From Kiritimatiellia bacterium (GTDB lineage Bacteria > Verrucomicrobiota > Kiritimatiellia > RFP12 > DVOR01): a stretch of 64,000 nucleotides of DNA. Location of the stretch: positions 575,286-639,285 of the forward strand of contig JAFXKZ010000002.1 in assembly GCA_017531445.1 (NCBI GenBank), written 5' to 3'. Numbering within the stretch: position 1 is the stretch's first letter; every line of letters begins with the position of its first letter. Shown in pieces: positions 13,189 to 59,753 of the stretch. The position numbers and the translations under genes are program-made. The notes under the pieces are model-generated. The model had not been told where the DNA came from, ran no database searches, and saw nothing but the letters and a program-made list of their open reading frames with translations.

Positions 13189-13296
13189 TCACGCTCGGCG
13201 ACAGACGTTTGCAATGTCGCCGATTTCCATCTGCGAAATGGGCGATATTCAACAGCAATCCCGCCCATCTTCACACCTGATTGTCGCCGACTTCCA
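13189..13296. repeat. 22-bp-period palindromic array A (five units)
   Basis: Five near-palindromic units have core centres at 13198, 13220, 13242, 13264 and 13287 (spacing 22, 22, 22, 23). The cores are TCGGCGA, TCGCCGA, TGGGCGA, CCGCCCA and TCGCCGA, mostly flanked by GCAAY on the left and NTTCC or ATTC on the right. A degenerate GCGGCGA follows at 13320. The array fills the middle of the 580-bp gap between nadK and carboxynorspermidine synthase. I see nothing else in that gap except the -10 box near 13004. Four related arrays occur elsewhere in the window. Confidence 0.8.
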
Positions 13297-27919: not shown

Positions 27920-28005
27920 TCAACAGGGGCGAAACTGCCCCGGCAATCCCGCCGATATCGGGCTGCAATTTCGCCCATGTTGCCGGCGTGTATCGGCGAT
28001 TTTCC
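27920..28005. repeat. 22-bp-period palindromic array B (four units)
   Basis: Unit centres are at 27929, 27952, 27974 and 27996 (spacing 23, 22, 22). The cores are GGGGCGA, CCGCCGA, TCGCCCA and TCGGCGA, with flanks such as GCAATC or GCAATT on the left and TGTTGC or TTTTCC on the right. It lies between the pgk terminator and the structured-RNA promoter. The rest of the gap (27660-27915) shows no convincing gene. Confidence 0.78.
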
Positions 28006-41539: not shown

Positions 41540-41625
41540 TCAATATGGGCGAAAGTCGTCCGCCATTCCGCCGATACCGGAAAGCAGTTTGGGCGATGTT
41601 ACCCCTGCACTTTCGCCCATGTTCA
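41540..41625. repeat. 22-bp-period palindromic array C (four units)
   Basis: Unit centres are at 41549, 41571, 41593 and 41616 (spacing 22, 22, 23). The cores are TGGGCGA, CCGCCGA, TGGGCGA and TCGCCCA. Flanks include TCAATA on the left and TGTTAC or TGTTCA on the right. It lies in the 890-bp gap between icd and tRNA-Gly, next to a different tandem repeat. Confidence 0.82.
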
Positions 41626-41717
41626 AACCTCACCCTCCCGACTTCTCAAATCAAGCCCTTTCAAACCCCCACTGCGCGCCCTTTGTTCAGTTCTGCCACC
41701 CCGCCCTCCCGCCTCTC

Positions 41718-42008
41718 CTTAAAGCACGCTACGCGCCTCAAGTCCACTCCCCGGGCACCAATACCACACCCCGAAAACACCGCCAACTTGCGGCAGAACA
41801 CCGCTTCACCTCCCTCCGGCACTCCCCGATTCCATCCCACATCACGCGGCTGCAATTATCCCACCATACAGCCCGCCCTTAAACACGCTACGCGCCTCAA
41901 ACCCGCTCTCCGGGCACCAATACTACACCCCGAAAACACCGCCAACTTGCGGCAGAACACCGCTTCACCACCCTCCGGTGCTCCCCGATTTCATCCCACA
42001 TCACGTAA
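41718..42008. repeat. Tandem direct repeat, two 128-bp copies
   Basis: Two copies (about 41718-41846 and 41878-42006) share most of their bases, including CACGCTACGCGCCTCAA, CCGAAAACACCGCCAACTTG and CGGCAGAACACCGCTTCACC. The repeat period is 160 bp with a less conserved 32-bp spacer. Differences are scattered and do not favour third codon positions, so I do not regard the open frame across them as a gene. Function unknown. Confidence 0.8.
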
Positions 42009-42102
42009 CCATAATTATTGTAACGAGCATGAGAAACAAAAGCTCCCCGTCACAAACACGTATGAATTTTTAAGGAGAAACGCGTTTTTTGAAAATTTTC
42101 CA

Positions 42103-50045: not shown

Positions 50046-50131
50046 ACAACATGGGCGATATCCACCCGCAACATCGCCCATCTGCAACGTCAATCCCGCC
50101 CATACTTCGGTTGCAACATGGGCGGGATTAA
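50046..50131. repeat. 22-bp-period palindromic array D (four units)
   Basis: Unit centres are at 50055, 50077, 50099 and 50122 (spacing 22, 22, 23). The cores are TGGGCGA, TCGCCCA, CCGCCCA and TGGGCGG, flanked by CAACA, GCAACA, TCAATC and GCAACA on the left. It lies between the convergent genes murD and queD. The rest of this 425-bp gap holds the murD terminator and small hairpins near 50171-50221. Confidence 0.82.
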
Positions 50132-59668: not shown

Positions 59669-59753
59669 TGAACATCGGCGAAATTGACGCGAAACTTCGC
59701 CGATGTTGCGCGGCAATTTCGCCGACGTTCAAGCGCGATGTCGCCGATGTTCA
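59669..59753. repeat. 22-bp-period palindromic array E (four units, cleanest copy)
   Basis: Unit centres are at 59678, 59700, 59722 and 59744, exactly 22 bp apart. The cores are TCGGCGA, then TCGCCGA three times, so all eight half-sites are TCG. Flanks such as GAACA / AATTG, AAACT / TGTTGC and GCAATT / CGTTC extend the palindrome. It lies between the divergent genes der and folP. Confidence 0.85.

Follow-up and report, generated by a model that had tools for sequence, protein, structure and literature searches.

A gut bacterium of the Kiritimatiellae, a relative of Candidatus Spyradenecus, carries in its genome a chromosome-wide family of phased intergenic arrays, most of them made of four near-palindromic units at a pitch of 22–23 bp, and our analysis confirms that this family is real. 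The starting point was a window of 64,000 nucleotides (C2:575286–639285) in the genome, here G000, whose 1.40-Mb assembly consists of two contigs, C1 and C2. We counted 83 arrays in 864 kb (62% of the assembly), from which we infer about 135 in the whole assembly; a whole-genome model search gave at least 156 matches on both strands (150 candidates scored). The first-pass annotation of the window had proposed an intergenic family of phased palindrome arrays and was right in that; the even spacing, the change of word between species and the limitation to a genus, described below, lay outside its view. The assembly is listed as 50% complete. Its GC skew gives near-balanced replichores when C1 is taken to bridge the two ends of C2, one of ∼726 kb and the other of ∼678 kb. 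Since the replichores are nearly balanced and regulators are very few, G000 is probably a nearly complete reduced genome.

Array E (window positions 59669–59753, no strand assigned) has as neighbors der on the minus strand and folP on the plus strand, and is the best of all matches to the R1 model, at 75.7 bits. Its units are GAACATCGGCGAAATTG (59669–59687, with its strong half on the minus strand) and, on the plus strand, AAACTTCGCCGATGTTG (59691–59709), CAATTTCGCCGACGTTC (59713–59731) and CGATGTCGCCGATGTTC (59735–59753). Their centers, at 59678, 59700, 59722 and 59744, are exactly 22 bp apart, the same four that had been reported. The window holds four other arrays, likewise unstranded and of four units, and these show the 22- or 23-bp spacings that had been claimed for arrays A to D: 50046–50131 (centers 50055, 50077, 50099 and 50122; spacings 22, 22, 23), 41540–41625 (41549, 41571, 41593 and 41616; 22, 22, 23), 27920–28005 (27929, 27952, 27974 and 27996; 23, 22, 22) and 13211–13296 (13220, 13242, 13264 and 13287; 22, 22, 23), the last of which has a fifth, weak unit at 13198. 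The word AACNTCGCCGANRTT, allowing up to two mismatches, matched 13 times in the window; shuffled versions averaged 4.04 matches and none of 100 reached 13. A tandem duplication was noted at 41717–42018 (159-bp unit, 1.9 copies, 88% identical), with an array on one side and tRNA genes on the other.

Much of the anatomy of the units was worked out in the first 464 kb of G000. Their consensus is the 17-bp palindrome CAATnTCGCCSATRTTG, or CAAT-D-TCGCCSA-T-R-TTG when divided into core and arms; in the earlier consensus, GCAAYN-core-NRTTGC, the outer G and C proved only weakly conserved. Exact 7-bp cores (TCGCCGA, TCGGCGA, TCGCCCA or TGGGCGA) formed 62 pairs at a distance of 22 bp and 16 at 23 bp, with zero or one pair at each other distance from 12 to 39 bp. 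A PWM chain search over the same sequence yielded 46 chains, 42 of them with at least three units, while three shuffles of the same length yielded 0, 1 and 2; real arrays scored 34–70 and the best shuffled chain 11.0. The first-pass annotation had named parity with shuffled sequence as grounds for giving up the family, and the arrays are far in excess of it. Exactly four units were present in 36 of the 42 arrays, with spacings of 22, 22, 22 or with one 23 included; more than one 23 was rare. Inner core positions were 97–100% conserved and the arms ∼70%, and the 5–6-bp spacers were near random. Many cores read TGGGCGA/TCGCCCA, and in most units one of the halves retains the canonical TCG. Resemblance between the halves of the same unit fell below that between random halves (z −5.5), so a unit combines a canonical half with a weaker one. 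Pooled array ends showed a degenerate half-unit one period beyond each end, and no other conserved motif was found in the flanks of G000 arrays.

Near-palindromes invite an explanation at the level of RNA or single-stranded DNA, in which units would pair to form hairpins. Array E and two other arrays do give more stable folds than their shuffled versions (z −2.6 to −4.8), but repeated near-palindromes fold well by construction. Across 82 arrays, complementarity within an array was no higher than between arrays (largest z 2.1) and no topology was preferred. There is also no terminator-like tail at the array, no consistent strand and no Rfam match, and we regard this explanation as largely refuted.

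Only 7 of the 83 array midpoints fell inside ORFs, as called by a simple purpose-written gene finder, though 81% of the 864 kb is coding. Arrays equally common inside genes, the second outcome that the annotation had named as adverse, are thus not what we see: the arrays are nearly all intergenic. This placement between transcription units would suit operators or insulators through which a global transcription regulator acts across the genome, as would the slight excess of gene 5′ ends over 3′ ends facing arrays (103 vs 65), the mostly 5′ position of the array at orthologous genes, and the resemblance of phased palindromes to lambda-type operators. However, divergent, tandem and convergent gaps hold arrays about as often as those gaps occur; this lack of divergent or convergent preference argues against simple promoter operators. 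As read from their sequences, the flanking genes resemble unrelated housekeeping genes, and no suitable regulator was found in regulator-poor G000. Nor does a regulator need the even spacing described next. On balance we consider a global regulator improbable.

Arrays in G000 sit roughly every 4–20 kb. The shortest of 71 array intervals was 3464 bp and the median 8.6 kb, with none under 3 kb. As a null, the same number of arrays was distributed randomly over the actual intergenic gaps, no gap receiving more than one; 19% of these null intervals were under 3 kb, and the largest minimum in 2000 trials was 1962 bp. The coefficient of variation of the observed intervals was 0.56, against a lowest null value of 0.61 in the 2000 trials. 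A second genome, G003, which uses a different word, agreed: 1 of 76 intervals among the strongest matches listed was under 3 kb, against 14.8% expected (p=7e-5), a comparison biased toward longer intervals by its confinement to the strongest part of the matches. At ∼C2:265 kb in G000 the GC skew changes sign, which likely marks the terminus, and array density there was about threefold lower, 4 per 100 kb compared with 10–13 elsewhere on C2, although this depletion rests on few arrays (4 vs ∼11 expected). A possible array of another word, GAAAGTAACTTACTTT, also at 22-bp pitch, was noted at C2:113536, midway along a 19.5-kb gap that separates two ordinary arrays.

One 40-kb stretch of G000, C1:300001–340000 (L188, L189), has atypical composition and skew, small phage-like ORFs and no arrays, and looks like a prophage or island. 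An array-free stretch of this kind is what would be expected if the arrays were self-recognition marks, similar to Chi or uptake sequences, telling own from foreign DNA by a code that drifts between species. Their density and regularity, and words that are specific to the genus and variable among its species, would fit as well. Known self-recognition marks, though, are single short words that also occur inside genes, and have little in common with arrays of four phased palindromes; we think this explanation very improbable.

Seventeen genomes of the same GTDB genus were compared, using a motif-blind detector together with motif models. These genomes are far apart, with folP 48–61% identical to that of G000. 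Arrays of the sister species keep the layout and differ in their words, which are ACCCTATAGGGT-like, GATACGSCGTATC, TCAATATCAGCGAAATTG or CTTCATACCAGTATGAAG, some of these assignments coming from one or two arrays in small samples. By genome, the word was TCAAAGTCGCCCATTTTGA in G002, TCAATATCAGCGAAATTG in G016, ACCCTATAGTGGT/ACCCTTAAGGGT in G003, G005 and G006 (and, by model, in G009 and G015), GATACGSCGTATC in G007, G008 and G011, and both CTTCATACCAGTATGAAG and GGCTATAGCC in G013. Candidatus Spyradenecus faecavium has its own array word, AAACCCTAAAGGGT, and named records place the clade in the gut Kiritimatiellae. Some motif classes have odd and some even symmetry. The arrays are restricted to this one genus: no credible array was present at 16 outgroup loci, the first model gave chance-level matches only outside the genus, and the second gave no match in the ∼180 other genomes searched within the class, each model seeing only its own words. 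A long near-exact 22-bp tandem of ATTATCCCTTAGGGTTAAT units was observed at L236:70-300 (CAMGJH010000198.1); it has the pitch of the arrays and a different form.

Array positions tend to persist while the word changes, because neighbors of arrays are conserved between G000 and G016 despite their different words. Of the G000 orthologs of genes neighboring G016 arrays, 8 of 13 also adjoin arrays, compared with 24 of 105 other orthologs (Fisher p=0.006), and at these shared neighbors the gene end that faces the array is nearly always the same, mostly the 5′ side. None of the 73 gene pairs adjacent in both genomes had an array in either, which places arrays at the borders of conserved blocks.

Near-identical copies in two genomes show that arrays also spread or are homogenized as repeats. 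The G016 array lies in a ∼540-bp near-identical intergenic repeat found at ∼14 places in 430 kb, which means that in this genome array sequence was copied from site to site; in G003 the arrays have not just cores but also spacers in common. These copies, the non-monophyly of the word classes on a ParB plus TetR tree and the absence of arrays between conserved gene pairs would all suit a selfish dispersed repeat, REP/BIME- or MITE-like, whose palindromes would be the sites of an unseen transposase and whose words would record separate invasions. Several findings oppose it. Flanks and spacers in G000 are random while cores are kept, which requires selection; even spacing with an exclusion of more than 3 kb is not expected of such a repeat, nor are positions partly conserved across species with different words. 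The Y1_Tnp domain (PF01797) was absent from G000 and 14 other genus members, with one over-cutoff match in G016, and the unit profile has no GTAG/CGTC tag. We rate a selfish repeat, perhaps one domesticated later, as unlikely. As for the marks of a MITE or transposon, inspection by eye of the G016 repeat, whose ends are ragged, showed no target-site duplication or terminal inverted repeat. Within the G016 repeat (e.g. L105:8780-9320), the words GTTGATAAC and TTTTCAACA resemble DnaA boxes; the DnaA-box-like word beside G016 arrays was not enriched beside G000 arrays.

The explanation we favor, at about even confidence, is that the arrays are docking sites for a dimeric DNA-binding protein that binds cooperatively and organizes or marks the chromosome. 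A dedicated protein with a global role had already been suggested from the window; the invariant core, near-random spacers, fixed pitch and unit number, and even spacing fit that suggestion, and the cognate protein was not found. The recommended search for a conserved DNA-binding protein with the same phyletic spread as the arrays gave no clear candidate: among 612 predicted G000 proteins (62% of the genome) compared with relatives and outgroups, none was clearly a genus-specific DNA-binding protein.

Four known families were rejected as the binder. ParB is single-copy, with an HTH that hardly varies among species whose words differ. TetR is represented by a single ortholog in 17 of 17 genomes, and its recognition helix does not follow the word; the helix LTKGAVFWHF is common to G003 and G008, whose words differ. 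The LacI domain PF00356 was absent from all 17 genomes. The fourth, a protein of ∼190 aa with an XRE domain and a zinc-ribbon tail (e.g. L281, L271, L282), is widespread in the genus and has an almost invariant helix despite the different words; it was not detected in G000, where HTH_3 had no match. The sole tetR gene found in G000 (C2:547476–548324) has an array ∼150 bp upstream, and a diverged array (L293:1868–1934) occupies the same place upstream of tetR in G002.

The docking explanation would work as follows. A sequence-specific protein, probably homodimeric, would place one dimer on each 17-bp near-palindrome, so that four dimers, at 22–23-bp pitch and lined up along roughly one face of the helix, could bind cooperatively, with weak half-sites flanking each array. 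Set at even distances, the arrays would then act as anchors or marks in chromosome organization, segregation or division control. Between species the recognized word may shift through coevolution of protein and site together with copying between sites (gene conversion or reamplification), with pitch, unit number and spacing retained. We infer the protein, its cooperativity and its chromosomal role from the computed features of the arrays. Several points count against the docking explanation: no cognate protein was identified, the mixture of odd and even symmetry among motif classes would not readily arise from one slowly evolving dimer, the near-identical copies in G016 and G003 point to spread or homogenization as repeats, and few arrays underlie the terminus depletion.

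Among characterized systems, the sites of Noc and SlmA offer a parallel in distribution, being palindromes (of 14 bp in the case of Noc) that are dispersed along the chromosome in ∼70 (Noc) or 24–52 (SlmA) copies and are under-represented at the terminus (PMC4726725). The arrays are likewise palindromes over the chromosome that are depleted at the terminus, as judged from few arrays. Noc and SlmA sites are single, however, whereas the arrays are phased tetrads, and the members found here of the Noc family (ParB) and the SlmA family (TetR) keep their recognition helices unchanged although the word differs between species. CdbA of Myxococcus xanthus shows that one sequence-specific protein with more than 500 sites can be needed for chromosome organization (PMC7156744); by contrast with the case here, CdbA belongs to the ribbon-helix-helix proteins, and the direct repeats that it binds are not arranged as phased tetrads.

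REP/BIME elements are intergenic palindromes of high copy number, clustered, in families that vary by species, with a GTAG/CGTC tag at the foot of the palindrome (PMC3733652). The arrays resemble them as intergenic high-copy palindromes with species-specific words, and differ from them in lacking the tag (in unit and flank profiles), a RAYT in G000 and pairing between units, as well as in their helically phased fixed tetrads, even spacing and lack of preference for tandem or convergent gene ends. To our knowledge, CGTC-type REPs are likewise without a Y1 transposase. Iterons and lambda-type operators consist of ∼17–22-bp units two helical turns apart, to which dimers bind cooperatively, at one or two loci per replicon. 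Unit size and phasing are like those of the arrays, which instead occupy more than 80 loci in 864 kb; and iterons sit at the replication origin next to rep, whereas the arrays are chromosome-wide rather than at one locus. The cyanobacterial HIP1 is a highly iterated palindrome characteristic of a lineage (PMC4390886). It is a single 8-bp word, GCGATCGC, in contrast to a 22-bp-phased tetrad.

The first-pass annotation knew of no described family with this layout, and the open-licence papers searched held no description of such arrays, which thus appear to be undescribed. They are new in that no described family that we know of or found has phased tetrads together with even spacing along the chromosome and turnover of the word. 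The chromosome-wide sites known to us in bacteria are single words, long conserved and not evenly spaced.

More tentatively, and with less than even confidence, we suggest that the arrays form a lattice of evenly spaced anchors whose code has been rewritten in concert at more than 100 sites between sister species, within a fixed architecture of four palindromes, 22–23-bp pitch and a minimum separation of a few kilobases. Such a lattice would be a bacterial parallel to the fast-evolving codes of centromeres or boundaries and would imply a new class of binding protein. If it is true, it would become testable how bacteria measure distance along the chromosome when placing architectural sites, and how one protein and more than 100 sites change code together. 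An array probe would provide a handle with which to fish out a probably novel nucleoid protein from an uncultured gut lineage.
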